64,000 nucleotides of DNA from Nibribacter ruber (GTDB lineage: Bacteria > Bacteroidota > Bacteroidia > Cytophagales > Hymenobacteraceae), in the NCBI RefSeq assembly GCF_009913235.1, contig NZ_CP047897.1, forward strand, positions 4,277,001 through 4,341,000, written 5' to 3'. Shown piece by piece: positions 471-63,820 of this stretch (the first letter of the stretch is position 1; every line of letters begins with the position of its first letter). The position numbers and the translations under genes were made by a program. Under the pieces are notes generated by a model, which saw nothing but the letters and a program-made list of their open reading frames with translations, was not told the origin of the DNA and ran no database searches.

Positions 471-514
471 AGTCGTTTTTGAGCTGTTTTACCCAAAACT
501 GCCCAAAAACGACT
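471..514. repeat. Dispersed palindrome (family A)
   Basis: Arms AGTCGTTTTTG and CAAAAACGACT pair over 11 bases, then continue AGCTGTTTT/AAAACTGC around ACCC. It lies just after the ATPase stop codon. Confidence 0.9.
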
Positions 515-555
515 TTAGTCAACATTAAGCGATTATCCACCTAGTCTTAACCTGA

Positions 556-969
556 ATGGCCCAGTTTCATCATACATTTTCAGACCCGTTCAGCTCAGAG
601 GAAGTGGATTTGGGTTACGTAGACGGTGGCCAGCTCAAGCAGGTTTTCCGGGAATTTGCGTGGGAGGAGTGGCTTCAGAAGATGGAAGACTCTGCCATTG
701 ATGATTTTCATTTTTCGCCCACCTTGAATGTTTTTCAAAAAGAGCAGAAGCGGGAAATGCTGCTGTCTGCCCTAAAAGACAAGGGGAAGCTTATTTTCTA
801 TGTGTCTTACCGGCGGCCGCAAAAGGTGAAAAGGCTGTTCGGGCTCATGGAAAGGTTTGAGGAGAAATACACCACTGAGGTATTAGACCAAACCAAAGAG
901 CAAGCCGCCCAACTGCTTCAGGCATTCATAGAGGGAGACGCAGCCTACCTGAATGAAAAAGTAAAGTAA
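556..969 (+). CDS. Conserved hypothetical protein, 137 aa
   Basis: An ATG-started reading frame of 137 codons with coding-like composition, in the same orientation as the ATPase upstream and the DinB gene downstream. The product is acidic to neutral, rich in E, K, F and Q, with no signal peptide or membrane segment, so a cytoplasmic helical protein is expected. I do not recognise a domain. It contains aromatic patches (FREFAWEEWLQ, YVSYRRPQ) typical of a small folded protein. It is separated from the ATPase by a family A palindrome and probably has its own transcript. Existence is likely from its coding character and the absence of a competing frame; function unknown. Confidence 0.6.
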   Translation: MAQFHHTFSDPFSSEEVDLGYVDGGQLKQVFREFAWEEWLQKMEDSAIDDFHFSPTLNVFQKEQKREMLLSALKDKGKLIFYVSYRRPQKVKRLFGLMERFEEKYTTEVLDQTKEQAAQLLQAFIEGDAAYLNEKVK

Positions 970-1142
970 ACGCGGCACATTAGCTCCTTTGGCTATTTTT
1001 GGTGAGAATACACAGGCGGTAAGAGAAAGAGCGGTGCCCTTTCCGGGAGGGAGTCTACTTCTTGGTTAGGGGGACTTTCCAGATACCCAGCCTTTCCTTA
1101 ACTTACCCGCTCTATCGGATCATATCCTTCACCTACAAAGCC

Positions 1143-1649
1143 ATGGACTTAAATCAAATATTGTTGCAAGAGTTTACCCGCGAAGCCAAAAGCACCCGCC
1201 GAATGCTGGAACGGGTGCCGGACGAAAAGTTGGACTGGCAGCCGCACGCCAAAAGCTTTTCCCTGGGTAAACTGGCCGCCCACGTGGCAGAAATCCCCAG
1301 TATGTTCATCAGCAATGTTCTGCAAACCGAGGAGACAGACTTTGTCAAGCAGAAATTCAAGCCCTTTCACGCAAGCACCACCCAGGAACTTGTAGACTTC
1401 CATGACCAGGTGGTGGCCCAGGTCACCGAGGCCCTCACCCAAGCCTCAGCTGAGGAGTTTGGCAAGACCTGGACGTTGCGGCACGGAGAGAACGTGATCA
1501 TGGCCATGCCCAAGGCGGCCGTCATCAGATCCGTGGCCATGAACCACCTTATCCATCACCGCGGGCAGCTGTCTGTGTACTTGCGTCTGCTGGACGTTCC
1601 GGTGCCGGGCATGTACGGCCCCACCGCCGATGAGGCCTTTGCTGGCTAA
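1143..1649 (+). CDS. DinB family protein
   Basis: A 168-residue protein of the DinB/YfiT-like four-helix fold, which usually binds a divalent metal through three histidines and is linked to bacillithiol or glutathione-type thiol transfer or damage response. The sequence shows the typical N-terminal helix (LLQEFTREAKSTRRMLERVPDEKLDWQP), a first His in the LAAHVAEIP segment, and the pair near the C-terminus in MNHLIHHRGQL, which fits the family metal site. I use the ATG at 1143 because the family begins at this helix; an upstream GTG at 1062 would add 27 unlikely residues. No signal peptide. The exact substrate cannot be read from sequence. Confidence 0.85.
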   Translation: MDLNQILLQEFTREAKSTRRMLERVPDEKLDWQPHAKSFSLGKLAAHVAEIPSMFISNVLQTEETDFVKQKFKPFHASTTQELVDFHDQVVAQVTEALTQASAEEFGKTWTLRHGENVIMAMPKAAVIRSVAMNHLIHHRGQLSVYLRLLDVPVPGMYGPTADEAFAG

Positions 1650-1673
1650 CTGTTCACCCACTTTTACCAAAGT

Positions 1674-1715
1674 CCCGTTTTTAGCTTCTTTTCTGAGAAA
1701 TAGGCTAAAAACGGG
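1674..1715. repeat. Dispersed palindrome (family A)
   Basis: Arms CCCGTTTTTAGC and GCTAAAAACGGG pair over 12 bases. Here TTTTTGGC is changed to TTTTTAGC with the matching change in the other arm. It lies 25 bases after the DinB stop. Confidence 0.9.
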
Positions 1716-1857
1716 TTTTGTGTTTTCCCTCCTTGCCCCAAAGGGCCTTCATTGCGCTTAGAACAGGCAAACTTTTGTGAGACTGTTGAAAAATTTCCTC
1801 CATCCGGCAAAACCCAACCTGCTAGAAAGTCCGTATTTCTACCATGACTTAAACATG

Positions 1858-1895
1858 CGTTTTTTGCTGGTTTTAAGGGAAACAGGCTATAAACG
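1858..1895. repeat. Degenerate dispersed palindrome (family A)
   Basis: CGTTTTTTGCTGGTTTT and GGGAAACAGGCTATAAACG resemble a decayed family A copy; pairing is imperfect. It lies between DinB and the desaturase promoter. Confidence 0.5.
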
Positions 1896-1961
1896 GTAAT
1901 CTTTAGAAGGAAAAGATGCCGGAGTCTGGTCCCGGTTGAATTAAAACTCGCGTAGAAAACG

Positions 1962-1994
1962 TTACCTTTAAAGTCAGTTATAGATATAAATTTG
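1962..1994 (+). promoter_or_regulatory. Bacteroidota-type promoter for the desaturase
   Basis: TAAATTTG at 1987-1994 matches the -7 consensus TAnnTTTG; TTA at 1962-1964 is a possible weak -33 element, 22 bases upstream. Transcription would start near 2000, leaving a leader of roughly 45 bases before the ATG at 2047. Confidence 0.5.
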
Positions 1995-2046
1995 TGCCGA
2001 AGGCGTATTATTCATCTGTAGCCTTCTCATCACCTAATTGTTATTT

Positions 2047-3114
2047 ATGGCGACGCCAAGATTTTTGCAACCCACCGGCTTTCACTCTGAGCTGAAAAAT
2101 AGGATTAATCAGTATTTCAAGGACCGGGGCACCTCGCCCACCGGCAACTACAAACTATACACCAAGGCGGTCATCCTGGTGGCAAGCCTTCTGTTCCTGT
2201 ACGTGCACCTGGTGTTCTTTACGCCTGCCACCTGGCTGGCCCTGGTAGAATGCGTATTGCTGGGCGGCGTGACGGCGGCCATTGGCTTTAACATCATGCA
2301 TGACGGCGGCCACGGCAGCTTCAGCAAGAAAAAATGGTTGAATGAACTGGCCGGTCTTTCCCTGAACGTGATGGGCGCCAACATTTTCATGTGGACCACC
2401 AAGCACAACGTCATTCACCACACCTACACCAATATTGACGGCGTAGACGATGACCTGGACGCGCGCCCGTTCCTGCGCCTCTGCGAGAACCAGAAACGCC
2501 TGGGCATACATAGATACCAGCATTTCTATTTCTGGGGAGCCTATTCCATGCTCTACATCTACTGGATTTTCTTTACAGACTACGTGAAGTACTTTACCCA
2601 GAAGGTAGGCGATATTCCTCTCAAGAAAATGAAGCGCTCTGAGCACATCTCGTTCTGGGCTTTCAAAGTGCAACACTTTTTAATGTTTGTGGTGGTGCCT
2701 ATTTACATGGTGGGGTTCTTGCCTTGGCTGGTAGGTTTCTTGGTATATGGCATGTTCACGGGTCTGGTACTCAGCATTGTGTTTCAGCTGGCACACACCG
2801 TAGAAGACGCCCATTTCCCGGTGGCCTGTGAGCAGACCAACAAGATTGAAGACGAATGGGCCATTCATCAGTTGCGTACCACGGCCAACTTCGCTACTAA
2901 AAACAAAGTGGTGTCTTGGCTAACCGGCGGATTGAATTTCCAGATAGAGCACCATTTGTTCCCTAAAATCTCCCACGTACACTATCCTGAGATCAGTAAA
3001 ATCATAAAACAGACTTGTGCTGAATACAAAATTCCGTATATTGAGTACGCAAAAACAAGAACGGCCATTGCTTCGCACATTTCTCACCTGAGATATCTGG
3101 CCAAAGCTGCATAA
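2047..3114 (+). CDS. Membrane fatty acid (acyl-CoA/acyl-lipid) desaturase
   Basis: A 355-residue integral membrane desaturase that uses a di-iron centre to introduce a double bond into a fatty acyl chain, adjusting membrane fluidity. All three histidine boxes are present: HDGGH (H85 to H89), HNVIHH (H120 to H125) and QIEHH (residues 299-303). The Q in the third box is typical of the front-end/linoleoyl-CoA desaturase-like subgroup common in Bacteroidota. Hydrophobic segments lie near residues 36-75 and 205-245. The ATG at 2047 is chosen over a TTG nine bases upstream. It stands alone between a TAnnTTTG promoter and a strong terminator, so it is likely a single-gene transcript. Regiospecificity cannot be deduced. 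Confidence 0.9.
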   Translation: MATPRFLQPTGFHSELKNRINQYFKDRGTSPTGNYKLYTKAVILVASLLFLYVHLVFFTPATWLALVECVLLGGVTAAIGFNIMHDGGHGSFSKKKWLNELAGLSLNVMGANIFMWTTKHNVIHHTYTNIDGVDDDLDARPFLRLCENQKRLGIHRYQHFYFWGAYSMLYIYWIFFTDYVKYFTQKVGDIPLKKMKRSEHISFWAFKVQHFLMFVVVPIYMVGFLPWLVGFLVYGMFTGLVLSIVFQLAHTVEDAHFPVACEQTNKIEDEWAIHQLRTTANFATKNKVVSWLTGGLNFQIEHHLFPKISHVHYPEISKIIKQTCAEYKIPYIEYAKTRTAIASHISHLRYLAKAA

Positions 3115-3140
3115 GCTCCCATACTCGATCTAACAAACAA

Positions 3141-3184
3141 AACGTCAAGGCCTGAATCCACCAGATTCAGGCCTTGACGTTTTT
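3141..3184 (+). terminator. Intrinsic terminator after the desaturase
   Basis: Arms AACGTCAAGGCCTGAATC and GATTCAGGCCTTGACGTT pair over 18 bases around a 4-6 base loop and run into a T5 tract. The T tract is also the first part of a family A half-site. Confidence 0.9.
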
Positions 3185-3200
3185 AGGCTGGTTTTAAGGA
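3178..3200. repeat. Family A half-site fused to a terminator
   Basis: CGTTTTTAGGCTGGTTTT resembles one arm of the family A palindrome; the complementary arm is missing. Its T-run is the terminator T-run. Confidence 0.5.
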
Positions 3201-3407
3201 TTAATTCAGGCTGAAGGAGAGGGGTAAGGTGGTTTGGGTGTTGAACCTGGTTTTTAAGCTATCATCTTGTGCCGTTATTGATGGGGCGCGGGCCAATGGC
3301 CAAAACGGTTTTCTTCTATTGGATTTCTTTGGGGCAGGGGTTATTTGCGTGGTTTGTTCTTATGCTTTTGTGCACGCATTCCGCTATTCCTTCGTAGTCT
3401 CTTTCTT

Positions 3408-3661
3408 CCGGTGCGCACTCCCTTTCTTGTTTCATTGTGTCTGCTATGCGCTCACGGCCGCGGGGCCCCGTCCTGGCCCTTCGCGCTGCTGTTGTTTGTG
3501 GGACTTTGTCCCCTCCGCCGCTCACCGCGGCGCACAAACACCAGAGGCGCTCAGGATCAGTACTGGTAAAGGTGGGGTCTGCTAAGGTCTGATGGTTGGT
3601 AAGGCTAATTGCAGGCAATAGCCTTGGCTGCCGCTGCAGAGTCGTTCGCGCTGGCGCACGG
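3408..3661 (+). repeat. Long GC-rich intergenic repeat (family C), copy 1
   Basis: This stretch is found again inverted at 32740-32993 and in part at 49431-49513. Shared blocks include GCGCTCACGGCCGCGGGG, TTGTTTGTGGGACTTTGTCC and GCACAAACACCAGAGGCGCT. It contains nested dyads such as GTTTGTG/CACAAAC. Open frames across it are not genes. With the terminators and family A copies it accounts for the 728-base gap between the desaturase and the S9 peptidase. Confidence 0.8.
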
Positions 3662-3740
3662 TTTTTATCTGCTTACACGTGACCGGCCCGGCCTTGCGGC
3701 CGTCTGCCGATTGTAGCGTCGTTCGGTGGAACGACGCTGC

Positions 3741-3778
3741 TGTTTTTGGCCTCTTTTCCAGAAAACAAGCCAAAAACA
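3741..3778. repeat. Dispersed palindrome (family A)
   Basis: Arms TGTTTTTGGC and GCCAAAAACA with inner TTTTC/GAAAA. The outer C:G pair of the consensus is replaced by a T:A pair. It supplies the T-run of the adjacent minus-strand terminator. Confidence 0.9.
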
Positions 3779-3810
3779 ACAAGGCCCGCTCCCATGGGAA
3801 CGGCCTTGTT
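3771..3810 (-). terminator. Intrinsic terminator after the S9 peptidase
   Basis: On the minus strand AACAAGGCC and GGCCTTGTT form a stem followed directly by GTTTTTGGC, which is the edge of the family A palindrome. Confidence 0.85.
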
Positions 3811-3842
3811 GACTACACTTATTAATCACTAGTCATTAATTA

Positions 3843-6291: not shown

Positions 6292-6328
6292 CGTTTTTGG
6301 CATATTTCCTGGAAAACAAGCCAAAAAC
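6292..6328. repeat. Dispersed palindrome (family A)
   Basis: GTTTTTGGC and GCCAAAAAC arms around CATATTTCCTGGAAAACAA. It joins the minus-strand terminator of the 6400 gene. The rest of the gap between 6006 and 6399 holds nothing I can identify. Confidence 0.9.
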
Positions 6329-6651: not shown

Positions 6652-7148
6652 TTAGAAATTAGAAATTAAAAATTACGAATTGGGTTTAACGTGATTATGC
6701 TGGAAAAGGTAGACCGTCCTCCGTTTTTGGCCTGTTTTCTGGGAAATAACCTTAAAACGGGTTGTTGAGGAGATGTGAAGATGTGTAGATGTGAAAATTT
6801 GAGGATTTGAAAATTTGAGAAGGAGGGGATATGAAACTTATGACTCCCTCACTATTGTCATCCTGAAAGGATCTTGGGGGCAAGTTAGATAGGCCGTTGC
6901 CAAACGTCAATATCTCTGCTTCAAGTTTATAACTTGGAGCTTTGGTTGGGGCAAGTTTATAAACTTGTGAAAACCGCATTCTTCCTTCTTTCCACCAACG
7001 CAAGTTTGGAAACTTGCTCCTAGGTTACCCACAAGTTACCTCTCCGCTCAAACTTTCGGGAGGGATAATTTTACATCTCCACATCTCCAAATTCACTCAA
7101 TCACTCATTCACTCATTCACTCAATCACTCAATCACTCATTCACTCAA
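6652..7148. other. Gene-free stretch of short repeats
   Basis: About 500 bases without a credible gene. It holds AT-rich direct repeats (TTAGAAATTAGAAATTAAAA), a degenerate family A copy at 6721-6760 (CCGTTTT/AAAACGG), GATGTG-rich repeats near 6772-6815, a GTCATCCTGAAAGGATCTTG block at 6857-6876 that recurs in the 46.7 kb inverted repeat, CAAGTTTATAAACTTG dyads near 6951-6970, and a run of TCACTCAT/TCACTCAA units at 7095-7148 that recurs at 28117-28145. Confidence 0.7.
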
Positions 7149-8558: not shown

Positions 8559-8596
8559 CGTTTTTGGCCTGTTTCCTAGGAAGTAGGCCAAAAACG
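8559..8596. repeat. Dispersed palindrome (family A)
   Basis: Arms CGTTTTTGGCC and GGCCAAAAACG, centre TGTTTCCTAGGAAGTA. It lies upstream of the Crp gene. The remainder of 8597-8790 has no recognisable feature. Confidence 0.9.
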
Positions 8597-10953: not shown

Positions 10954-11009
10954 AATAAAAGCGCCTTCCTTTAAGCAAAATAAAGCTTGAAGGAAGGCGC
11001 TTTTATTAT
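10954..11009 (+). terminator. Intrinsic terminator after the M28 peptidase
   Basis: A stem of about 19 bases, AAAAGCGCCTTCCTTT pairing with its complement, ends in TTTTATTATT; an inner AAGC/GCTT adds to it. It could work in both directions. Confidence 0.9.
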
Positions 11010-12633: not shown

Positions 12634-12671
12634 CGTTTTTAGGCTGTTTTTCAGAAAATAGCCTAAAAACG
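12634..12671. repeat. Dispersed palindrome (family A)
   Basis: Arms CGTTTTTAGGCT and AGCCTAAAAACG pair over 12 bases (GG to AG change matched in the other arm). It begins four bases after the kinase stop codon, so it may act as its 3' hairpin. Confidence 0.9.
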
Positions 12672-12776: not shown

Positions 12777-12850
12777 GCAGATTCTCCCCTTGAGGATTGC
12801 CCAAACGCGAGTTTGAGGCAGCGCGCGCAGCTCAATAGAGGGGTGTTTAC
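12777..12850 (+). repeat. MITE-like repeat (family E), copy 1
   Basis: The block TTCTCCCCTTGAGGATTGCC, then AGTTTGAGGCA and GCGCAGCTCA, closing with TAGAGGGG, recurs with few differences at 25700-25773 and in part at 15148-15190 (inverted). The ends CTCCCCT and AGAGGGG are inverted relative to each other. Confidence 0.75.
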
Positions 12851-12957: not shown

Positions 12958-12994
12958 CGTTTTCCGCCTATTTCCCAGAAAATAGGCCGAAAAC
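12958..12994. repeat. Dispersed palindrome (family A)
   Basis: CGTTTTCCGCCTATTT and AAATAGGCCGAAAAC, one mismatch. It abuts the minus-strand terminator of the M1 peptidase. Confidence 0.85.
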
Positions 12995-13038
12995 AAAGGA
13001 GCCTTGCCAGAAGTATGCCGGCAAGGCTCCTTTGTTTT
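12990..13038 (-). terminator. Intrinsic terminator after the M1 peptidase
   Basis: A 19-base stem (AAAACAAAGGAGCCTTGCC with its complement) around an 11-base loop. On the minus strand it ends in GTTTTCGGCC, shared with the family A palindrome. Confidence 0.9.
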
Positions 13039-14719: not shown

Positions 14720-15520
14720 AGAAAAACATTTGCCAAAAACGGGAGATACTAAGGTACGTCGCAAATTGAAATTTACACATCCTAATGCCAAGAAGAAGAT
14801 AGACCACTACCTATCACCAACCGCCTCCTCCTCATGGCCCTTTCAGAAAAACGCATCAGGCGATAAATACCAGTAGGAGAGGGCTAGACCTGTCCACCTG
14901 TGCATTGCCCGCTTCTTTTTTTTCCTATGCATGCGAAGTCATCCCCCTACCCCCTTAAAAGGGGGACGGCATACGTGTTTTTTGTAGAGACCAGTCATTG
15001 CCTTGTCTCCCACGCATTGCCTTCTTTTGCTGGGTTTTACCAACTCTGCCTTTTCTTTCATAGGAAGGGAGGTTTTGTATCTGTTGATGTAGACACCCCC
15101 CTTCGCCCCCCTCAAGGGGGGAATCTGCAACTTGAACCGTCCATAGCGCTGATGCTCGTCTGGGCAACCCTCAAGGGGGAATCTGCAGTTAGCCTCCGTT
15201 ATAGGTTGCTGGAAATTACCATCATCAACCAACAACCAGCAACCAAGCATCAGCAAATAACAATTAGCAACCAGCAACCAACAACCAGCAATCAACAATT
15301 AACAATCAGCAATCAGTAACAACCTTCGTTTTTGGCAGGTTTTCTGGGAAATAGCCCAAAAACGGAGCCAGAGCAGAGAAAAGCGTTCTACTATTTTACG
15401 ACGGGCGTTTACGTTTTAGTTTGACTGGGTACTAACAGGCGTGAACCAAGGCTTCTAAAACGGCCGCGGTTCCTGCTTTTTTCTGTAGTTTTAAAGCCAT
15501 TCCATCGTCCTGCGTCCTGT
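14720..15520. other. Gene-free repeat-rich stretch
   Basis: An 800-base gap. In order it holds a family A half-site (GCCAAAAACGGG, 14732-14743), a family D block (14942-14967), a family H block with TTTTTTGTAGAGAC...TTGTCTC (14977-15033, again at 26164-26219), family D CACCCCCCTTCGCCCCCCTC (15093-15127), an inverted partial family E copy (15148-15190), a run of CAACCAGCAACCA-type units (15215-15319) and a full family A copy. Open frames through it follow the repeats and are not genes. Confidence 0.7.
15327..15364. repeat. Dispersed palindrome (family A)
   Basis: CGTTTTTGGCAGGTTTTC and AATAGCCCAAAAACG. It lies 157 bases upstream of the restriction-modification gene. Confidence 0.85.
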
Positions 15521-19365: not shown

Positions 19366-19407
19366 TGCGTTTTTGGCTTGTTTTCCAGGAAACAGGCTAA
19401 AAACGCA
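19366..19407. repeat. Dispersed palindrome (family A)
   Basis: TGCGTTTTTGGCTTGTTTTC and the near-complement ending GGCTAAAAACGCA; the outer TGCG/CGCA pairs extend the stem. It lies between the R-M gene and the reductase. Confidence 0.9.
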
Positions 19408-20806: not shown

Positions 20807-21337
20807 ATGAGTGAATTTAGGCGTACCTCTCCAGATGAAACCTATTTTATCACCTTGACGGTGACCGGCTGGATAGACGTGTTTACAAGAGCCGTGTACA
20901 AGGATTTTCTCATAGAAAACCTTGCCTATTGCCAGAAAAAAGAACACCTGGACATCTTTGCGTATGTGCTCATGAGCAACCACCTTCACCTGGTAGCCCG
21001 CCGTCCCGAAAAAGATTTAACTGAATTGCTGGGAAGGTTCAAGAGCTATACGGCAAAAAAGGTGTTGGCTGCCATAGAAGCGCATCCTCAAGAAAGCAGA
21101 AAAGAGTGGCTGTTGCACCAGTTTCAATTTTATGCCCGGCAGAAAGAACAATATAGCCAATACCATTTCTGGCAGACCACCCACCACCCTGTTCTGCTGC
21201 ATACGCCAGCGCTCTTACAACAAAAAGTAGACTACATCCATCAAAACCCGGTAAAGGCCAGCATTGTCACAGAACCAGAATACTACGTGTACAGCTCAGC
21301 TTGTCCAGATAGTCCGCTAAAAGTGGCAGACCTTTAA
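20807..21337 (+). CDS. REP-associated tyrosine transposase (RAYT, IS200-like Y1 family)
   Basis: A 176-residue protein of the Y1 HUH transposase superfamily. It has the HUH motif H59-L-H61 in MSNHLHLVARRP, the following helix GRFKSYTAKKV, and the C-terminal signature DYIHQNPVKASIV with YYVYSSA typical of the solitary RAYT group. The catalytic tyrosine is not certain; candidates are Y81 and those near residues 110-120. RAYTs are single-copy, domesticated-like enzymes that nick single-stranded REP hairpins. The gene sits between two nearly identical family B repeat pairs in the same orientation, as expected for a RAYT and its own repeats. ATG at 20807 is preferred to a TTG two codons earlier. 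Confidence 0.92.
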   Translation: MSEFRRTSPDETYFITLTVTGWIDVFTRAVYKDFLIENLAYCQKKEHLDIFAYVLMSNHLHLVARRPEKDLTELLGRFKSYTAKKVLAAIEAHPQESRKEWLLHQFQFYARQKEQYSQYHFWQTTHHPVLLHTPALLQQKVDYIHQNPVKASIVTEPEYYVYSSACPDSPLKVADL

Positions 21338-21540: not shown

Positions 21541-21580
21541 TCGTTTTTAGGCTATTTTCCAGAAAACAAGCCAAAAACGA
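21541..21580. repeat. Dispersed palindrome (family A)
   Basis: TCGTTTTTAGGCTATTTTC and GAAAACAAGCCAAAAACGA. It ends 16 bases upstream of the -7 element of the ArsC-like gene. Confidence 0.9.
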
Positions 21581-25509: not shown

Positions 25510-25547
25510 CGTTTTTAGGCTGTTTTCTGGTAATTGGGCTGAAAACG
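25510..25547. repeat. Dispersed palindrome (family A)
   Basis: CGTTTTTAGGCTGTTTTC and TTGGGCTGAAAACG. It lies 76 bases upstream of the J-domain gene start. Confidence 0.85.
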
Positions 25548-25699
25548 GAGTTTCTATTCCTAAGAATTTTCTTTGAAAAAGGAGCGTATTCGTCTCCCTT
25601 TGAAGGGGGTAGGGGGATGATATGCGAGTCCTGAGTCTATAGCTCTATCCTAACATGGACTCTCCCCTTGATGATTGCCCACACGTGAGTCTGAAGCAG

Positions 25700-25773
25700 T
25701 GAGGATTCTCCCCTTGAGGATTGCCCAAACGAGAGTTTGAGGCACCGTGCGCAGCTCAGTAGAGGGGAGTTCA
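25700..25773 (+). repeat. MITE-like repeat (family E), copy 2
   Basis: Closely matches 12777-12850 (GATTCTCCCCTTGAGGATTG, AGTTTGAGGCA, GCGCAGCTCA, TAGAGGGG). A shorter related block (CTCTCCCCTTGATGATTGCC) precedes it at 25662. The gap 25435-26395 also holds a family D block (25591-25620) and the second family H copy (26164-26219); I see no gene in it. Confidence 0.75.
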
Positions 25774-26293
25774 CCCATGCTGGTCAAAACCCAAGCCGTT
25801 GTTGGTGTTTACACCAAAAAACAAGTTACCTCCTAACACCTTTTACTACCATCTTCTTCTTTCATACTTCCTGCCCAGGTTTGTCACTTTTCTCCTTGAT
25901 GAGAAAAGTAACCAAAAGAATCAAGAGCCCCCGAACTCGCTGCCGCTCAGACAGGCGGGGTCTCATCTTTCTGCACTTGGCTGATGTGATTCGTTTTATA
26001 GCTGGCTTATGACTTTGCCATTTGAAAAGACACTACTTGCTCCCTGCCCATGCTCCGGGCGCACAGCCAGGGCTGCCCTTCGCAAGGTCGGTCGGCTGAC
26101 GGATTGATGTTGGAGACGCTGTAATGCGTTTATGCGCTGGCGCGGTGTGTAAATTGCCATTGATTTTTTGTAGAGACAACGGCACCGCCTTGTCTCTGGC
26201 GCATTGCCCTCTTCTGCCAGCCTCCTAACCTTCTGCTGTTGCTCAAAGGACCTCGTAGCGTCCGGCAGGACTTGCGAGCGTCTGTGCCATGAA

Positions 26294-26333
26294 CCGTTTT
26301 TGGCTTGTTTTCTGGAAAATAGGCCAAAAACGG
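26294..26333. repeat. Dispersed palindrome (family A)
   Basis: CCGTTTTTGGCTTGTTTTC and GGAAAATAGGCCAAAAACGG. It provides the T-run of the PepD terminator. Confidence 0.9.
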
Positions 26334-27990: not shown

Positions 27991-28028
27991 CGTTTTTGGC
28001 CTATTTTCCAGAAAACAAGCCAAAAACG
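27991..28028. repeat. Dispersed palindrome (family A)
   Basis: CGTTTTTGGCCTATTTTC and GAAAACAAGCCAAAAACG, between divergent genes, so it cannot be a 3' terminator here. A TCACTCATTCACTCATTCAC run follows at 28124-28145, ending eight bases before the next start codon. Confidence 0.9.
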
Positions 28029-29236: not shown

Positions 29237-29276
29237 GCGATTTTGGCCTCATTTCCAGGAAACAGGCCAAAATCGC
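29237..29276. repeat. Dispersed palindrome (family A), variant
   Basis: GCGATTTTGGCCTC and CAGGCCAAAATCGC. The consensus CGTTTTTGG is CGATTTTGG here, with the matching change CCAAAATCG. Confidence 0.85.
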
Positions 29277-29505: not shown

Positions 29506-29549
29506 ATTCGGTTTTAGCCTCTTTTCCCGGAATCAGGCCAAAAATGAAT
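29506..29549. repeat. Degenerate dispersed palindrome (family A)
   Basis: ATTCGGTTTTAGCCTC and CAGGCCAAAAATGAAT; pairing is imperfect but the outer ATTC/GAAT is kept. Confidence 0.7.
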
Positions 29550-32367: not shown

Positions 32368-32405
32368 CGTTTTTGGGTTGTTTTCTGGGAAATGGGCTAA
32401 AAATG
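32368..32405. repeat. Degenerate dispersed palindrome (family A)
   Basis: CGTTTTTGGGTTGTTTTC and GGGAAATGGGCTAAAAATG upstream of the permease. Confidence 0.75.
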
Positions 32406-33204: not shown

Positions 33205-33242
33205 GTTTTTGGCTTGTTTCCTAAGAAACAAGCCAAAAACGC
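33205..33242. repeat. Dispersed palindrome (family A), perfect stem
   Basis: CGTTTTTGGCTTGTTTC and GAAACAAGCCAAAAACG pair over all 17 bases around CTAA. CTTG/CAAG replaces the commoner CCTG/CAGG, a matched change. It lies 30 bases upstream of a -7 element. Confidence 0.95.
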
Positions 33243-35718: not shown

Positions 35719-36204
35719 TTAGAACTTCAGATGAAAGCCTAACCCATTACCCATAAAGCCTAGTTTCATATCCAGCTTCGGGAGGGATGATTCTAACTGC
35801 CCACTATTGTAAAGATGCACGGCTTTGGTGGCATGCTTCGCGTAGGAAGAAGAAAACTTAAACCCTACCGCCACAATTCCCACGCCCGTACCTGCCATTG
35901 CCCATCTTTTCCCTCCGTCCATGGATGTGGCCAATAGAGGCCAGGCTATCAATAGACCGCCCACAGTGCTGAAAAAGACAGTGCCCGTTCCTCCTTTTTT
36001 ATAAGCCAGTTGCATCTGCTCATGCGCCGCCGGGTTTGATTGTGTAATTTCTAGCAATTCCTTTGGACTTAGGCTCTTGCCATTCTGAAGAAAGACCGTA
36101 GAAAAACCTTTCTTAATCTGAATACTATCCACAGGCGCTTGAGTCTGCGCAAACAATTGGCAGGTGAATAGCAAAGAAATACAAAGTATGAAAAGTGTTT
36201 TCAT
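35719..36204 (-). CDS. Hypothetical exported membrane protein, 161 aa
   Basis: A 161-residue protein with a signal peptide (MKTLFILCISLLFTCQLFAQ). The mature part has a helical segment with KELLEITQSNPAAHEQMQLAYKKG, then two hydrophobic glycine-rich stretches (GTVFFSTVGGLLIAWPLLAT and WAMAGTGVGIVAVGFKFSSS), and a beta-like tail ending in F (LKLGFMGNGLGFHLKF). The pattern is common among small envelope proteins of Cytophagales, but I cannot name a family. It converges on the GH92 gene through a shared terminator and is divergent from apbE. Function unknown. Confidence 0.7.
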   Translation of the reverse strand: MKTLFILCISLLFTCQLFAQTQAPVDSIQIKKGFSTVFLQNGKSLSPKELLEITQSNPAAHEQMQLAYKKGGTGTVFFSTVGGLLIAWPLLATSMDGGKRWAMAGTGVGIVAVGFKFSSSYAKHATKAVHLYNSGQLESSLPKLDMKLGFMGNGLGFHLKF

Positions 36205-36342: not shown

Positions 36343-36384
36343 TTCGTTTTTGGCGTGTTTTCTAAGAAATAGCCCAAAAACGAA
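36343..36384. repeat. Dispersed palindrome (family A)
   Basis: TTCGTTTTTGGCGTG and AGCCCAAAAACGAA, with TTTTCTAAGAAAT at the centre. It sits between divergent genes. Confidence 0.88.
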
Positions 36385-37605: not shown

Positions 37606-37659
37606 GTGCATTCCGTTTTTGGCCTGTTTCCTAGAAAACAGGCCAAAAACGGAATGCAC
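37606..37659. repeat. Dispersed palindrome (family A), extended 24-base stem
   Basis: Perfect pairing from GTGCATTCCGTTTTTGG inwards through CCTGTTT, and the full complement ending CCAAAAACGGAATGCAC; the loop is about CCTAGA. It is the only strong hairpin between the convergent apbE and flavoreductase genes, so it may terminate both. Confidence 0.95.
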
Positions 37660-37668: not shown

Positions 37669-39864
37669 TTAATAGCAATCAGTGAGAAGTTGGCCCCTGG
37701 ATTGGTAATGGCTGAGGCTTTGCCCTAGTTTGGTTTGGCAGATGGTTTCCAGAAGGGCCGTCACGTCTTTTTGCATGGCCAGAGAGCCACAGATCATCAG
37801 GACGCCGCCGGTAGAAAGCATGTTGGCAATAAAGGTGGCATCGCGGTCAATCAAGTCACTTACATATTGTTTAGCTCCTTCGCGGGAGAAAGCTACTTGT
37901 AAGTAGGTGAGTCTTTGGGCTGACTGTTGCTCTTCTAAATAGCCTTGGTAGGTGCTGAAAGAGGCGCTGCTTCTAAAACCGCAATACAAATGAATAGCCG
38001 TTTTTGGGCTGTTTTGGCCAATCATGCCCAAAAACGGACCAATGCCAGTGCCGTTGGCAATCATAACCACTGCCGGCGCTTTCTTAGGGAAGTGGAAGTG
38101 CGGATTAGGCACCAGCTTGGCCTGAAGGGTTTGGCCGGGCGTGAGCCGGTGCAGGAAGCCAGAACCCAGGCCATTGGGGTGCAGGCGCACGCTCACTTGC
38201 AAGGCATTGTCCACCAAACCCACAGAATAGAGGCGTTCGCGGTGGTCGTTTTCTGGGTATACGGCCAGCAAATCTCCCGAGGTTACTTTAAGGCGTTTGG
38301 CCGGTTTTAACCGGACCAGGAAGGTGCCCTCCTCATGTTGCTGGGCCGTGGTGGCAGTCACGGTGAAGGTCTCCAGTTTTTGGGCGGGTACCTGTCTTAA
38401 TTCTGGCAATACCATGAGGGGCAGGCCCGCTTGGGAAGACCAGGCCTCGGCCCACAAGGAGAATTCCTGCGGCGACCGGTCATTGACGGTATGCACGTCT
38501 ACCAGCGCCGTGGCCCAGGGCTGCTGAGACAGGGCTTGGTGCACCTCAAAGGCGAACTGACAGAAATCTGGATAAGCCTTTGAACCGAAGCCCACTACCG
38601 AGAACTGAACCGGCTGCGCTTGCGGTACCGATTGCACTAACGTGGCAAACTTTTTAGCGTTGGTGGGCGCATCGCCTAGGCCATAGGTAGCGGTAAAAAC
38701 TAGGATATGTTCTGCCTTGGGGTAAGTGGTGTACTGGTTAAGCTCGGCTAAGAATGGTTTCTTTCCTTGTTTTAATAGCTGCCGGTAAACTGCCTGGGCG
38801 AAGTGAAACGTGCTGCCGTTCTCTGAGCCTACCAGCAAAATGAAGCGGGCCTCTTTGGCCGGGTACTTGTTCTTGATTCGGTTGGCTCTGCGTTTGAACG
38901 TGATGGCAAAACCCGAGTAGATAAAGAAGAGAATGTTGCCAGACGCTACCAGCAGAATAATAGCCCAAACAATAGACGTTCTACCGGTGTGCAGATCTAG
39001 GCTCAGCGTGGTGAGTTTTTGGGTGGTTGGGTAGCGTACCTCGCTTAAAATATCTCCTGTGATTTGGTTGACCGCCACTTCGCGGTCTTTTAGTTGGAGG
39101 GTGAAGTAATCCTCGGGGTCTTCAGAGAAAGGAAATTCAATAGACTCCACCTCCGCCATGGAAATATCCTGGAAGACAGCCATCTCGGCAAGAGGCTTGG
39201 CCGGACCTGTTTTAATGGCGTCAAAGTCCACCTGGGTAGAGACTTGTTCGCTTTTGATGAGTTCAAACCGCTCCAGTGACAGATAGGTGCCGGTCAAGGC
39301 TAGGATGAAAATAGGAATAAGAGACAATCTGCCCAGCACCACGTGGTAATACTGCGCGAAGCTGTCTTTGACAATGCTGGTGAAGAATCGTTTAATGCCT
39401 CGCTGCCGCTGGATGATGAGAATGGTGCCGGAAATGGTGATGAGCAGGAGCAGGAAAGCAGTGAGCCCTACGAAAAAGCGACCCATTCCTTTCAGGAAGA
39501 GGGAGCGGTGCAGGTCGGTGACCCACAAGAAGAATTCGCTTTGTTTTTGGGGAGTGCCCAGAATTTCGCCGGTCTTGGGGTTGACGTAGGCTTCTACGGT
39601 TTCGCCTGAGGCATCGCTTCCTTTTAACAAAACAAACTGGTGCGCGTCTACGCTAATCTCCGTGATTTCTGGGTACCGCTTTTGCAGGACTGGCAGGGAT
39701 TGTGCCAGGGTGAGTTGTTCAACGCCGTCTACGCGGTAGGGCTGCGTTTTTTTAGCAATGGGCTCAAAGGCCAGAAGAATGCCCGTGACCGAGGCTAAGG
39801 TCAATAAAAGAAAAGAAGATACAGCCAGGGCTAAGTGGCTGTATCTCCAGATGGATATGGTCAT
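37669..39864 (-). CDS. PepSY-flavodoxin-reductase fusion (membrane NADPH flavoreductase)
   Basis: A 731-residue membrane protein. The N-terminal PepSY/PepSY_TM part has hydrophobic segments near residues 10-33, 130-155, 185-205 and 300-330. A flavodoxin domain follows (about 345-490, LVGSENGSTFHFAQAVY, FTATYGLGDAPTNAKKF), then a sulfite-reductase-like FAD domain (ERLYSVGLV) and an NADPH domain (VMIANGTGIGPFLGMIG) ending in a Tyr. It should move electrons from cytosolic NADPH through FAD and FMN across the membrane, probably to a flavinylated or haem partner outside. It is third in an operon with DUF2271 (14-base gap) and ankyrin genes. Residues 610-622 are encoded by a family A-like palindrome. 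Confidence 0.9.
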   Translation of the reverse strand: MTISIWRYSHLALAVSSFLLLTLASVTGILLAFEPIAKKTQPYRVDGVEQLTLAQSLPVLQKRYPEITEISVDAHQFVLLKGSDASGETVEAYVNPKTGEILGTPQKQSEFFLWVTDLHRSLFLKGMGRFFVGLTAFLLLLITISGTILIIQRQRGIKRFFTSIVKDSFAQYYHVVLGRLSLIPIFILALTGTYLSLERFELIKSEQVSTQVDFDAIKTGPAKPLAEMAVFQDISMAEVESIEFPFSEDPEDYFTLQLKDREVAVNQITGDILSEVRYPTTQKLTTLSLDLHTGRTSIVWAIILLVASGNILFFIYSGFAITFKRRANRIKNKYPAKEARFILLVGSENGSTFHFAQAVYRQLLKQGKKPFLAELNQYTTYPKAEHILVFTATYGLGDAPTNAKKFATLVQSVPQAQPVQFSVVGFGSKAYPDFCQFAFEVHQALSQQPWATALVDVHTVNDRSPQEFSLWAEAWSSQAGLPLMVLPELRQVPAQKLETFTVTATTAQQHEEGTFLVRLKPAKRLKVTSGDLLAVYPENDHRERLYSVGLVDNALQVSVRLHPNGLGSGFLHRLTPGQTLQAKLVPNPHFHFPKKAPAVVMIANGTGIGPFLGMIGQNSPKTAIHLYCGFRSSASFSTYQGYLEEQQSAQRLTYLQVAFSREGAKQYVSDLIDRDATFIANMLSTGGVLMICGSLAMQKDVTALLETICQTKLGQSLSHYQSRGQLLTDCY
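37998..38037. repeat. Family A palindrome inside a coding region
   Basis: CCGTTTTTGGGCTGTTTTGG and its near-complement ending ATGCCCAAAAACGG lie within the flavoreductase gene and encode PFLGMIGQNSPKTA in the sense frame. Confidence 0.75.
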
Positions 39865-42202: not shown

Positions 42203-42249
42203 AGGTCGTTTTTGGGCTCTTTTTGAGAAAAAGAGCCCAAAAACGACCT
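42203..42249. repeat. Dispersed palindrome (family A), perfect 22-base stem
   Basis: AGGTCGTTTTTGGGCTCTTT begins the left arm and AAAGAGCCCAAAAACGACCT ends the right arm; loop about GAG. GGCTC/GAGCC replaces GCCTG/CAGGC in both arms. It lies between divergent genes. Confidence 0.95.
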
Positions 42250-45907: not shown

Positions 45908-45946
45908 CCGTTTTTGGCCTCTTTTCCAGGAAATACCCCAAAAGCG
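45908..45946. repeat. Degenerate dispersed palindrome (family A)
   Basis: CCGTTTTTGGCCTCTTTTCC then AAATACCCCAAAAGCG; fused to the following terminator. Confidence 0.75.
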
Positions 45947-45981
45947 AAGAGCTCCGCTGTTACAGCGGAGCTCTTCGCTTT
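45941..45981. terminator. Bidirectional terminator between convergent genes
   Basis: An 18-base perfect stem (AAAGCGAAGAGCTCCGCT with its complement) and a five-base loop. The minus-strand T-run continues into the family A copy. Confidence 0.93.
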
Positions 45982-46704: not shown

Positions 46705-46856
46705 GTCATCCTGAAAGGACCTTGTGAGCGAGTTAGAAAGCAGAGGTTAAATATCTTACCCGTTTTTGGTCCATTTCCTGGGAATGAGGTCAAAAACGGA
46801 TTTTTACATTTAGCAGTCGTCTTTCTAGTTCGCTCACAAGGTCCTTTCAGGATGAC
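46705..46856. repeat. Large inverted repeat with a family A copy inside (family F)
   Basis: Arms of 36 bases (46705-46740 and 46821-46856), beginning GTCATCCTGAAAGGACCTTG, with two mismatches. The family A palindrome (CCGTTTTTGG...TCAAAAACGG, 46760-46799) lies near the middle. A lone GTCATCCTGAAAGGATCTTG occurs at 6857. Confidence 0.88.
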
Positions 46857-49201: not shown

Positions 49202-49240
49202 CGTTTTTGGGCAGTTTTCGGAAAAATAAGCGGAAAACGG
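49202..49240. repeat. Dispersed palindrome (family A), next to a start codon
   Basis: CGTTTTTGGGCAGTTTTCGG and AAATAAGCGGAAAACGG, imperfect. It directly adjoins the ATG of the second GH92 gene (49200), in its 5' untranslated region. Confidence 0.75.
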
Positions 49241-49780: not shown

Positions 49781-49818
49781 CGTTTTTGGCTTATTTTCCT
49801 GAAAACAGCCCAAAAACG
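49781..49818. repeat. Dispersed palindrome (family A)
   Basis: CGTTTTTGGCTTATTTTC and GAAAACAGCCCAAAAACG, seven bases from the ACP terminator. Confidence 0.9.
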
Positions 49819-56640: not shown

Positions 56641-56682
56641 GCCGTTTTTGGCGTGTTTCTTAGAAAAAGGGCCAAAAACGGC
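56641..56682. repeat. Dispersed palindrome (family A)
   Basis: GCCGTTTTTGGC and GCCAAAAACGGC pair over 12 bases; centre GTGTTTCTTAGAAAAAGG. No other feature is seen in 56520-56782. Confidence 0.92.
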
Positions 56683-58187: not shown

Positions 58188-58250
58188 AAAAGCTTGGGCG
58201 AAGGAATATACTACTTTAGTGGGTAGTGTATTCCTTCGCCCAAACTTTTT
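58188..58250 (-). terminator. Long hairpin terminator after the second M28 peptidase
   Basis: Stem of about 26 pairs (GCTTGGGCGAAGGAATA and near-complement TATTCCTTCGCCCAAAC), with CTAC/GTAG inside. On the minus strand it ends in GCTTTTATA. Confidence 0.88.
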
Positions 58251-60055: not shown

Positions 60056-60099
60056 CTTCGTTTTTGGCCTGTTTTCCAGAAAATAAGCCAAAAACGAAG
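60056..60099. repeat. Dispersed palindrome (family A)
   Basis: CTTCGTTTTTGGC and GCCAAAAACGAAG pair over 13 bases, then TTTTC/GAAAA at the centre. Confidence 0.93.
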
Positions 60100-60133
60100 T
60101 AGTCCATCGGCAGAAGCACTTGTAATGCCTCCA

Positions 60134-60168: not shown

Positions 60169-60203
60169 CTCATGAATAGGCAGATCTAATTACTGGCTGG
60201 GGC

Positions 60204-60329: not shown

Positions 60330-60894
60330 AAAGGGTTAAACCAGGTTAGGCGTTTTTCAAAACACCCGAAGTTCACAGAGCCTGACTCTCCCTTCCTCAA
60401 TCATACCAACGAAGTTTAAGGTACTACATTTTACCGTAGGTTCTACTTTTCTGGAGAAACTTCTTTCCAGAGGCTTCGTGGTTTCTATGTAGGTACAACA
60501 ATCATACCGCCCTAAGTGTTCACAGCCGTTGAATCCTTTCGCTCATGCTCTCTTCTTTTTTGGCTTTCCAGCCTGGTACTTATCGTTTTTTGCCTGTTTT
60601 ATGGAAAATAGCCCAAAAACGCAAGTCGCTCTTGTTTAGCGGGTTGTGAAGTGTAGCAGGGTAGAAATTTTAGAGAATTAGAACTAACCTATATTTTAGG
60701 CAAGGTGTTTGCATGATAAAGAACAAGGTGAGATAAGAAGGGAAGAAGGACCGTTTCAGCCTGCTGTTTCACTGGGATGATTGACTTTGAGCGAGGGTTT
60801 GTTCTGGCTTTGATGCTGCCTGCTGGCAGCAAGTGAGGTTCCAGAATGTAGTTAAGCTCCACTACCAAATTTCACCTTTATTAACAGACAAAAC
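60330..60894. other. Gene-free stretch before the DUF6600 gene
   Basis: About 565 bases with one family A copy (CGTTTTTTGCCTGTTTT and AAAATAGCCCAAAAACG, 60584-60621). No other gene, promoter consensus or repeat was identified. Confidence 0.7.
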
Positions 60895-62214: not shown

Positions 62215-62236
62215 GGGAGAAGATTGAATGATGATT

Positions 62237-62274
62237 GAAGAGCCGTCCTTGCAAAGGGATGGCTCTTCGTTTTT
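62237..62274 (+). terminator. Intrinsic terminator after the DUF6600 gene
   Basis: GAAGAGCC and GGCTCTTC with inner TCC/GGA pairing, followed by GTTTTT, the first bases of the family A copy at 62268-62302. Confidence 0.88.
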
Positions 62275-62302
62275 AGGCTGATTTCTGGGAAATACGCCAA
62301 AA
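62268..62302. repeat. Dispersed palindrome (family A), imperfect
   Basis: CGTTTTTAGGCTGATTTC and GAAATACGCCAAAAAAG; shares its T-run with the terminator. Confidence 0.75.
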
Positions 62303-62465
62303 AAGAGCATATTTGAAAAGTAGAGGAATTCAGCTCTTAGCAAATCTTGTATCCACTCTGAAATGATAAAGACTCCGGATTTATAAGAAAACGATCTGTC
62401 ATGTTGTCTTTACACTACAAGTAGGAAATGGTAGGAGCCGCATCTGAAGGGAAAACAAAACCAAT

Positions 62466-63179
62466 ATGAACATAGGCAAGGCCGTCCTTTTTCACCTACT
62501 TCCCGGGCTTATTACCATAGTCATCGTGGTTCTGTTGGCCCCGCTGCTCCAGCAACATGGCTGGCATACAGGGCTCTCATTTTTAGCGGCGCTGGTTTTC
62601 ATCACCATTCCTTTGCATGTGTATTTGCTGCTGAGAGAAGGAAGAAGGATTCATGGGTTTTATACGCTCAGGGGTGTGAACCTGTACCACCAACCCATGC
62701 CGGCATGGCAGTACTTTCTGTTCTTTATGGCCTTGGTTGCCTGGGCCTTCGGGCTGTTGTTTCTGTTGGCGCCTGTAAAGGAGTTTCTGCTGGAGCAGGT
62801 GTTTTATTGGCTTCCGGCATACCTGAAAGGCAGTGATCAGGTGGCATCTCTCAGCTACAGGGCCATGCTGTTGTTTCTGGTGTTGCAGATTTTGGTAGAT
62901 GGTCTACTTATACCGGTGGTAGAAGAGTACTACTTTAAAGGCTACCTGCTGGCCAGAATGACTTCTTTGGGAATAGTTGCGCCGTTATTATCTGCGGCGC
63001 TGTTTGCCTTCGCGCATTTTTGGCAGCCCTACAATTACCCGCTTATCTTCCTGATTCAGCTCCCGCTCACGTATCTGGTCTGGTACAAGAAGAACCTGTA
63101 TTTGGGAGTGTACCTGCATGTTTTCGGGAACCTGTTCGGAGCCCTTTTAAGCTTGATAGGATTTCTAAGTGCTTCTTAA
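62466..63179 (+). CDS. CPBP family intramembrane glutamic protease
   Basis: A 237-residue membrane protein of the CAAX prenyl protease 2/bacteriocin-processing (CPBP, Abi) family. Hydrophobic segments lie near residues 7-28, 35-55, 78-100, 135-152, 165-185 and 200-235. The active-site motifs are present: E153-E154-YYFKG, the FAFAHFWQP segment with its His, and the last-helix HVFGNLFGA with His and Asn. Members cleave membrane substrates, sometimes linked to bacteriocin immunity; the target here is unknown. It appears to be transcribed alone. Confidence 0.88.
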   Translation: MNIGKAVLFHLLPGLITIVIVVLLAPLLQQHGWHTGLSFLAALVFITIPLHVYLLLREGRRIHGFYTLRGVNLYHQPMPAWQYFLFFMALVAWAFGLLFLLAPVKEFLLEQVFYWLPAYLKGSDQVASLSYRAMLLFLVLQILVDGLLIPVVEEYYFKGYLLARMTSLGIVAPLLSAALFAFAHFWQPYNYPLIFLIQLPLTYLVWYKKNLYLGVYLHVFGNLFGALLSLIGFLSAS

Positions 63180-63344
63180 CCATTTTGTTGTCAAGAATAC
63201 ACTGGCTGCATTTTACCCTTCTTCAAGCCTTGGCAAGCTAGGCTCATAAGATAGCCCCGTCAAGAACTCAACCTGCCATTGCTTCTCTTGCTAAAATACA
63301 TTTACCTTAGAGAACCTTAATAAGCAGACAACAAATCCAAAGCC

Positions 63345-63710
63345 ATGAAGACAACCCCAGCGCATGATGCTAAAATAGCCAACATGACCTTTGCCTCGGT
63401 GTACCCGCACTACGTGACCAAGGTAGAACGCAAAGGCAGGACCAAAGAAGAACTGCACCAGGTACTTGCGTGGCTGACGGGTTTTGATGAAAACAAACTG
63501 CAGGAGCTAATCACAGAAAAAGTGACCTTTGAGGCTTTCTTCCAACAAGCAGCCATTCCTCCCAACGCAACGCTCATTACAGGAACCATTTGCGGCTATA
63601 GGATAGAAGAGATCGAAAACCCATTGACCCGGCAGGTGCGGTACCTAGACAAGCTGGTAGATGAACTGGCGAAGGGCAAAAAGTTGGAGAAAATCATACG
63701 GCAGTCGTAA
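63345..63710 (+). CDS. DUF2200 domain-containing protein
   Basis: A 121-residue soluble protein covering the complete DUF2200 domain, marked by ASVYPHYVTKVERKGRTKEE, LHQVLAWLTGFDE, TLITGTICGYRIEEIENPL and VRYLDKLVDELAKGKKLEKI. The family is widespread, small and uncharacterised; the fold has been described as related to helical DNA-binding-like or YdhG-type proteins, but no function is established. It is cytoplasmic and appears to be monocistronic. ATG at 63345 fits the family start. Confidence 0.88.
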   Translation: MKTTPAHDAKIANMTFASVYPHYVTKVERKGRTKEELHQVLAWLTGFDENKLQELITEKVTFEAFFQQAAIPPNATLITGTICGYRIEEIENPLTRQVRYLDKLVDELAKGKKLEKIIRQS

Positions 63711-63782
63711 GGCATTTCCACTAAACAATGTAAGTATCGTTCCTCCTCAGGATTGTACCTAAGTCTTGAGCTAGGCAACGCT

Positions 63783-63820
63783 CGTTTTTGGTCTGTTTTC
63801 CAGAAAAGAGGCCAAAAACA
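63783..63820. repeat. Dispersed palindrome (family A)
   Basis: CGTTTTTGGTCTGTTTTC and GAAAAGAGGCCAAAAACA, between the convergent DUF2200 and the partial gene at the right edge. Confidence 0.88.

Follow-up and report, generated by a model that had tools for sequence, protein, structure and literature searches.

The stretch analyzed here, called the window, comprises 64,000 nucleotides of contig NZ_CP047897.1 (positions 4,277,001 to 4,341,000) and carries, among others, genes for an M20 peptidase, an alcohol dehydrogenase, GH92 and ApbE proteins, a PepSY/flavodoxin protein and a Y1 transposase. Copies of one palindrome, the subject of this report, are scattered between these genes. A first, sequence-only reading had counted about 33 copies of a single family, 36 to 54 bases long with a loop of 0 to 6. 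The family is indeed one, and we count 32 copies with a symmetric weight matrix, 31 of them between called genes and one, at 38000, within an open reading frame (ORF). The variable length did not hold: the palindrome is a fixed 36-bp dyad, GTTTTTGGCCTGTTTTC-YR-GAAAACAGGCCAAAAAC, and the longer cases, such as 37606-37659, are a site with extra inverted repeats on its flanks.

Each arm is laid out as G TTTTT GGC CTG TTTTC, followed by the central YR step, which is CA or TG in 112 of 177 sites, and by the mirror image. A further C precedes the 36-bp site in 0.88 of half-sites, giving 38 bp when the outer C...G is included. Two direct repeats, (C)CGTTTT and CTGTTTT, can be read within each arm, 11 bp apart. 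A pattern allowing 24 to 40 bp gave 310 exact matches; among the approximately 100 listed, two were of 37 or 39 bp and the rest of 38 bp. The matrix was refined on the window together with twenty further stretches, each of 20 kb, from this genome (G000), and placement and arm statistics come from these 464 kb (about 10% of the genome), while the total count covers the whole genome. The 464 kb hold 177 sites, or about 1 per 2.6 kb. Their scores are bimodal, with 181 sites above 6 bits and 168 above 30 bits, and neither a second-order Markov null nor the reversed sequence yielded a single site. Genome-wide, a pattern tolerating three mismatches, which recovers 172 of the 177 matrix sites, gave 1,671 matches compared to 0 in the reversed control. 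A search of the window against Rfam returned no match at gathering score; miRNA-like matches in a 261-base piece fell far below it and are probably chance matches to the palindrome.

To place the sites relative to genes, we used our own fifth-order Markov caller (364 genes, 82% coding), which misses small genes. By context, 106 of the 177 sites are in tandem gaps, 43 between convergent genes and 18 between divergent ones; 7 are at contig edges and just 3 within genes. Sites occupy 89 of 149 tandem gaps of at least 100 bp, 33 of 47 convergent gaps of at least 50 bp and 16 of 46 divergent gaps of at least 150 bp. Tandem gaps shorter than 50 bp are occupied only once in 49, and operons are therefore avoided, as the sequence-only reading had stated for tight operons. 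That reading had also excluded a pure terminator role, citing copies between divergent start codons at 27991, 36343 and 42203; the 18 divergent copies bear out the exclusion, although, of the three examples, our calls make the first and third divergent, and the second depends on whether ORF 35719-36204 is a gene. A stop codon lies within 30 nt of 61 of the 167 classed copies and within 100 nt of 116, the distances showing a peak at 0 to 30 nt and a second mode at about 50 to 85. Distances to start codons peak at about 70 to 135 and are low below 50. Others lie upstream of promoters, and 7 of the 18 divergent copies are within twofold of the middle of their gap. In three convergent gaps of 43 to 58 bp, the site fills most of the space between the two stop codons.

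Such a distribution could be that of a binding site for a global transcription regulator or a general nucleoid protein, with a role other than boundary insulation. Some copies do lie about 70 to 135 bp upstream of start codons, beside conserved promoter-like blocks. This explanation is quite unlikely, however, given that a stop codon is no more than 100 nt away from 116 of 167 copies (no more than 30 nt from 61), and that the approximately 1,700 sites are nearly uniform and lack the weaker tail of a regulon. A promoter element at fixed distance was also considered and rejected: a -7-like TANNTTTG box, a motif of Bacteroidota, is present in 30 of 131 outward regions, but at no constant spacing, its distance from the site ranging from 15 to 162 nt.

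The number of sites per gap is restricted. Among 291 gaps of at least 40 bp, 128 have one site, 19 have two and none has more, whereas placement at random by length predicts about 185, 68, 24 and 14 gaps with 0, 1, 2 and 3 or more sites. Occupied gaps thus number 147 compared to about 106 expected, a value reached in 0 of 2,000 simulations. The earlier claim that the palindrome stands at nearly every transcription-unit boundary is right as to the boundary; occupancy is high, though not complete. Two sites sharing one gap are at least 172 bp apart; in the two such gaps that were read (12635/12959 and 25511/26296), each site is near its own gene and other dispersed repeats lie between. The proposal that every tRNA is flanked by the palindrome was rejected (2 of 8).

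The same counts bear on a DNA-uptake-type signal, that is, a genus-specific word driven to high copy by biased uptake. Genus limits, dialects and a link with terminators are all reminiscent of DNA uptake sequences (DUSs), as described in the accessible part of PMC3630211, which also mentions overlapping dyad arrangements of two DUS dialects in Simonsiella muelleri. Half-sites standing alone are about twice as frequent as the null: 12 above 14 bits, compared to 6 in the Markov null and 3 in reversed sequence, and 28 above 12 bits, compared to 12 and 8. DUSs have a copy number roughly similar to that of the palindrome. Solitary half-sites are nevertheless few beside the 334 of 354 arms that occur in pairs, and from their count the uptake signal was judged unlikely. 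Moreover, an uptake drive does not predict a maximum of two copies per gap, and only 3 of 177 copies are in genes, whereas intragenic DUSs are common according to the same part of PMC3630211. Altogether, we consider an uptake signal highly improbable.

Sites are also maintained in place. Comparison with the nearest relative, G007, covered 26 strictly adjacent orthologous gaps: 13 have a site in both genomes, 1 in G000 only, 0 in G007 only and 12 in neither, such that 13 of 14 site-bearing gaps keep their site. Four of the 12 empty gaps are shorter than 40 bp, and without these the association has a p value of 3e-5. The 13 shared gaps hold 16 G007 sites and 18 G000 sites, and a global alignment puts 15 of the former on one of the latter; these 15 pairs are 79% identical in the site and 38% in ungapped flanks (70% if the flanks are aligned with gaps, which flatters them), and gap events number 2 per 540 bp of site compared to 93 per 1,548 bp of flank. 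Extension to 15 relatives, for adjacent orthologous gaps of at least 60 bp, gave 40 gaps with a site in both genomes, 11 in G000 only, 3 in the relative only and 16 in neither (Fisher p 2.7e-6; 0.002 without G007). This comparison covers the fetched stretches, some of them chosen around orthologues or near known matches and hence partly non-random, and a given gap may count once per relative, so that not all counts are independent. The position 27992-28027 passes the pattern in 11 of the 15 relatives, and G004, G006, G009 and G014 have degenerate T- and A-runs there; over 16 species, this gap shows the site footprint between two conserved promoter-like blocks, the rest being scrambled. The copies of the window are listed in Table 1.

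Table 1. Palindrome copies in the window, with their context and their counterparts in the nearest relative, G007
Positions	Feature	Context
475..510	site	20 nt after stop of 2-454 gene
1677..1712	site	27 nt after stop; kept in G007
1859..1894	site	second in gap of 1677 site; kept in G007
3742..3777	site	convergent gap, adjoins terminator hairpin; kept in G007
6293..6328	site	hairpin-abutted, 71 nt after stop; G007 has a site in the same gap, not aligned to this one
6723..6758	site	upstream of 6400-6642 gene
8560..8595	site	upstream of 7788-8462 gene
12635..12670	site	convergent gap, 5 nt after stop; kept in G007
12959..12994	site	second in convergent gap of 12635 site; abuts terminator hairpin 12990-13038
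15328..15363	site	divergent gap
19369..19404	site	tandem gap, start codon 126 nt on
21543..21578	site	tandem gap, downstream of Y1 transposase gene
25511..25546	site	upstream of 24403-25434 gene; kept in G007
26296..26331	site	second in gap of 25511 site, beside terminator of M20 peptidase gene; one site and shorter gap in G007
27992..28027	site	divergent gap between M20 peptidase and alcohol dehydrogenase genes, midway (126/125 bp)
29239..29274	site	convergent gap
29510..29545	site	second in convergent gap of 29239 site, after terminator
32369..32404	site	divergent gap
33205..33240	site	123 bp before GH92 gene start
36346..36381	site	124 bp before ApbE gene start; kept in G007
37615..37650	site	convergent gap, within longer inverted repeat 37606-37659; kept in G007
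38000..38035	match in PepSY/flavodoxin gene	also in G007 orthologue; probably coding conservation
42208..42243	site	divergent gap, start codon 126 bp on (37-bp spaced variant); kept in G007
45910..45945	site	convergent gap, abuts hairpin 45941-45981; kept in G007
46762..46797	site	tandem gap; absent in G007 (gap 236 vs 223 bp, no clean insertion)
49203..49238	site	upstream of 46900-49200 gene; kept in G007
49782..49817	site	second in gap of 49203 site, after terminator; kept in G007
56644..56679	site	tandem gap
60060..60095	site	divergent gap; kept in G007
60585..60620	site	second in divergent gap of 60060 site; kept in G007
62269..62304	site	tandem gap, abuts terminator; kept in G007
63784..63819	site	convergent gap

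Two other kinds of inverted repeats were noted in the window. At 46710-46850, one palindrome lies between two oppositely oriented copies of yet another repeat (GTCATCCTGAAAGGACCTTGTGA-type), and a similar sequence is present in the G007 gap. Strong intergenic inverted repeats at 58188-58249 and 10954-11007 are unrelated to the palindrome and are probably standard terminators.

The palindrome is a property of one genus. All 16 members have 290 to 2,059 matches (0 to 2 in the reversed control), while 7 of 134 other genomes of the family have 1 or 2 matches, with control matches in 2 of 134, and 1 of 394 genomes of other Bacteroidota has one match at one mismatch, as does 1 of 394 in the control. 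Among named genomes, the near-exact consensus is found in Rufibacter only (XAAS-G3-1, R. ruber and R. sediminis; Hymenobacteraceae), and the genus is, as far as can be told, Rufibacter; G000 is placed in it on this ground. A de novo search for fixed-spacing palindromes saw none in 20 kb from each of five other genera, which is little sequence. In the relatives, for which gene calls are poorer, 25 of 352 copies fall within genes. Within the genus, the sequence of the site has dialects. G12 and T13 are favoured in G000, G007, G001 and G006, and the inner block of G013 is CTCATTT (C12 0.92, A13 0.71, 64 sites). About half of the outer blocks of G005 have GTTTA, and at the shared divergent position this species has GTTTAG on one arm and a GTTTAG-like sequence on the other. 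Density varies as well: in G013, 7 sites lie in 100 kb (stretches L038 and L076-L079) of the 155-kb second contig, which may be a plasmid, compared to 54 in 120 kb of the large contig, or 0.7 and 4.5 per 10 kb, a ratio of about one sixth, and densities in G009 are 0.2 and 0.7 per 10 kb.

At gene 3' ends, the palindrome is coupled to terminators. On the sides of sites that face a gene 3' end 30 to 110 nt away, a strong hairpin ends within 8 nt of the site in 23 of 68 cases (within 3 nt in 22), compared to 0.2 expected from shuffled sequence and 0 of 53 for sides facing a gene 5' end. The docked hairpin uses the site's own T-run as its U-tract, as can be read directly. A looser detector found a hairpin with a T-rich tail at 30 of 46 gene ends that have a site 50 to 90 nt away (shuffled, 2), at 18 of the 65 whose site is no more than 30 nt away (shuffled, 4) and at 25 of the 78 that have no site and a gap of 100 bp or more (shuffled, 5). 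Where a copy is at most 30 nt from a stop codon, its flanks pair well above expectation (0.64/0.56/0.43 compared to 0.37/0.31/0.27, n=61), and the site is therefore the apex of a longer hairpin there. An outer stem of at least 3 bp is present in 25 of these 61 copies, and in 12 of the 25 a U-tract follows. Flank pairing is weaker in copies 31 to 100 nt from a stop, with little in divergent (n=18) and other copies. The site itself reads T-run, stem, A-run, which is not the build of an intrinsic terminator.

These observations invite the view that the palindrome is an RNA-level element, a transcribed hairpin that terminates transcription or stabilises mRNA 3' ends. Flank pairing near stops, the docking of hairpins, the 116 of 167 copies within 100 nt of a stop codon and the short convergent gaps that are almost all site agree with it, as do pairs 5, 6 and 9, which covary near stops in relatives, and the outer pairs 1, 2, 5 and 6, which do so in some species. 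The inner arms behave otherwise. At the variable pairs of G000 (7, 9, 10, 12, 13, 16 and 17), pairing is 0.559 compared to 0.586 expected (z -2.7, 167 sites), and the arms therefore vary independently there. Pooled relatives likewise show no covariation at pairs 7, 8, 10-13, 16 and 17; this set contains 327 sites of score at least 20 from 13 relatives (G009 and G015 dropped), freed of the 25 of 352 sites within called genes and of any at contig edges, gene calls being made with the same model (76% coding). Over pairs 7, 8, 10-13, 16 and 17, in G000 as in the pool, the exception is pair 12 in G013. Nor is there a preference for G-U on the sense strand: A-C mismatches in tandem copies are as frequent as G-U (169 compared to 138). 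Finally, the A-run after the stem provides no U-tract of the usual polarity, and 18 of 177 copies lie between divergent promoters, one such position being kept in 11 of 15 relatives. An RNA hairpin as the sole selected feature was therefore rejected for the inner arms by the covariation test, and retained at 3' ends for the outer pairs, the spacers and the flanks; as an explanation of the whole element, we consider it unlikely.

A further possibility is a domesticated mobile palindrome resembling repetitive extragenic palindromes (REPs), which an element-encoded enzyme would have spread in the ancestor of the genus and which was later kept as terminator and boundary material. Like REPs in the broad sense, the palindrome is high-copy, extragenic and palindromic, and its preference for tandem and convergent gaps near stops is that of REPs in the part of PMC3733652 available. 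Of the 16 genus members, 15 encode Y1 transposases (PF01797), and in two gaps a single G007 site corresponds to two sites around inserted repeats in G000. On the other hand, G007 has dense sites and no PF01797 match, and outside the genus PF01797 matches occur in 18 of 23 genomes searched while the palindrome, by exact pattern, occurs in 0 of 23. No one-sided GTAG or CGTC tag is attached to the palindrome: with the flanks pooled, the frequency is 0.02 for both A at -2 and G at -1, and near background for C at -4 (0.24) and for G at -3 (0.29), where a one-ended CGTC would give about 0.6; the bases common to both ends are C at -1 (0.88) and C/T at -2 (0.84). Positions conserved between species, a maximum of two sites per gap and the single site present in G000 and absent from G007, which is no clean insertion, also oppose mobility. 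The arms of a REP recognised as a folded hairpin should pair, and here the observations point both ways: the inner positions lack covariation, but pairs 1, 2, 5, 6 and 9 covary in some species. We regard this origin as unlikely.

Other repeats of the window are of a more classical type. A Y1 transposase gene of the kind associated with REPs (RAYT-like, PF01797) at 20807-21337 has different inverted repeats (CCTCGCTCGCCTCTGGCGAG type) on both sides; these form a separate REP-like family in the same genome, and a copy of the palindrome also lies downstream, at 21543. Dispersal of the palindrome by RAYT was rejected on presence and absence and on the Y1 gene's own flanking repeats. Another dispersed intergenic repeat (TTCTCCCCTTGAGGATTGCCCAAAC...), at 12780-12850 and 25658-25775, lies between two palindromes in each case, and the corresponding G007 gaps have one palindrome and are shorter (428 compared to 106 bp, and 961 compared to 180 bp).

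The explanation that we favour, to which we give a little less than an even chance, is that the palindrome is a double-stranded DNA operator for a putative two-fold-symmetric protein that marks and insulates transcription-unit boundaries, and on which terminators have docked. Both the protein binding and the insulation are inferred from the following. The dyad is fixed, the inner positions vary independently, the arms are bipartite, scores have a threshold, positions are conserved and dialects are genus-specific, all of which points to a sequence-specific DNA-binding protein. The pattern is that of protein operators, with symmetric half-sites at fixed spacing and arms that drift independently, the outer and spacer pairs being a partial exception. 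Placement between all kinds of transcription-unit neighbours argues for a boundary function that works both ways. Each 18-bp arm would offer two contact blocks, separated by one helical turn (11 bp), and the protein would thus probably have two DNA-binding elements per arm; the changed inner block and retained outer block of G013 suggest that the two are different. The positions marked would be those that follow a stop codon or the terminator belonging to it, those that separate a terminator from the next promoter, and those between divergent promoters, where the bound protein would insulate neighbouring units both ways, limiting the spread of supercoiling, read-through or both. At gene 3' ends, intrinsic terminator hairpins would often be built right up to the site, whose T-run would then serve as their U-tract. 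That this is a dedicated punctuation protein of one genus, with about 300 to 2,000 sites per genome, co-evolving dialects and terminators built on the sites, is possible, yet appreciably short of an even chance.

Several results weigh against this explanation. A simple roadblock to transcription fits the docked-hairpin geometry badly and is disfavoured, because a protein bound at the site should stop the polymerase while the docked hairpin is still incomplete; we favour insulation instead, the T-run being where terminators dock. In tandem gaps, the presence of a site is independent of a terminator outside it: gaps of 120 to 400 bp are occupied in 19 of 34 cases with a separate terminator and 44 of 68 without, and those of 60 to 120 bp in 1 of 7 and 9 of 39. 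No site is present in 144 of the 291 gaps of at least 40 bp, nor in six of the 8 gaps that hold tRNAs (2 of 8 occupied), and all gene boundaries come from our own caller. Sites are weak and sparse in G009 and G015 (290 and 501 matches), and G009 keeps a site in 0 of 2 gaps that bear one in G000; these degenerate sites may perhaps be decay after a change in the binding factor. Some pairs do covary: 1 and 6 in G000 (z 4.3 and 3.4), 2, 5 and 6 in G007 (z 4.4, 5.7 and 3.3), 5, 6 and 9 in G005 (z 2.3, 4.3 and 3.0), 6 in G006, and 6 and 12 in G013 (z 3.6 and 5.4). Pooled relatives covary at pairs 5, 6 and 9 (z 3.7, 7.1 and 2.7), with z of 1.8 and 2.2 at pairs 1 and 2, and pair 6 has z 6.2 near stops and 3.7 in other copies. 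Some selection or mutation thus acts on hairpin pairing, including at the outermost recognised bases. Judged from the sequences, the element reads as two layers, recognition of both arms by a protein everywhere and hairpin selection on outer and spacer positions at transcribed gene ends; quasipalindrome-correcting mutation could contribute to the pairing.

Among the four candidates that the sequence-only reading had offered, a nucleoid or topoisomerase site is the best fit, in the form of a nucleoid- or topology-type DNA site. An mRNA 3' stabiliser accounts for the copies at gene 3' ends and leaves the lack of covariation in the inner arms unexplained, while a REP-like mobile element (untagged, conserved in position, one or two per gap, with no RAYT-type gene in G007) and an uptake-type signal (fixed paired spacing, half-sites at about twice chance, 3 of 177 in genes) fit poorly. 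Its observation is confirmed and its interpretation partly supported; it overlooked that the length is fixed, that the half-site is bipartite and that sites are coupled to terminators, and conservation across the genus was beyond its view.

We found no earlier description of such a boundary signal in the open-access literature searched. What forms the barriers to supercoil diffusion in bacterial chromosomes is presented as an open question in the available part of a 2019 review (PMC6907758). With the palindrome at about half of the gaps sampled, boundary elements become directly testable through single sites or one protein. If the explanation is correct, the sites would provide a sequence-readable map of transcription-unit ends across the genus, and G013 a case of about 1,600 sites that shifted dialect together.

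Comparison with known systems places the palindrome apart from each. By analogy, bacterial interspersed mosaic elements (BIMEs) are the closest functional precedent: one BIME impedes supercoil diffusion (available part of PMC6907758), and REPs and BIMEs are likewise palindromes of high copy number that lie outside genes, close to gene 3' ends and where genes converge (available part of PMC3733652). Unlike tagged REPs and BIMEs, the palindrome is symmetric, fixed in length and untagged, with copies at least 172 bp apart where a gap has two; it also differs from them in that one site-rich species has no RAYT-type gene, that positions are conserved in the genus, that the inner arms lack covariation and that copies occur between divergent promoters. 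The DUSs of Neisseriaceae share with it the existence of dialects and the use within terminators (available part of PMC3630211), but they are short, single and often intragenic, whereas the arms of the palindrome are paired, at fixed spacing and almost only intergenic. The sites of MatP (matS), Noc and SlmA are also sequence-specific palindromes placed across the chromosome; they number in the tens with a regional distribution, in contrast to about 1,700 sites at transcription-unit boundaries. The centre, TTTTC-YR-GAAAA, looks like the CodY box (consensus AATTTTCWGAAAATT), a resemblance only, since the palindrome has one extra central base and long outer arms; we know of no CodY in Bacteroidota. 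Lastly, the eukaryotic boundary and roadblock factors Reb1, TTF-I and CTCF are, like the protein that we propose, DNA-bound factors between transcription units; the palindrome differs in being bacterial and palindromic, and the likeness implies no homology.

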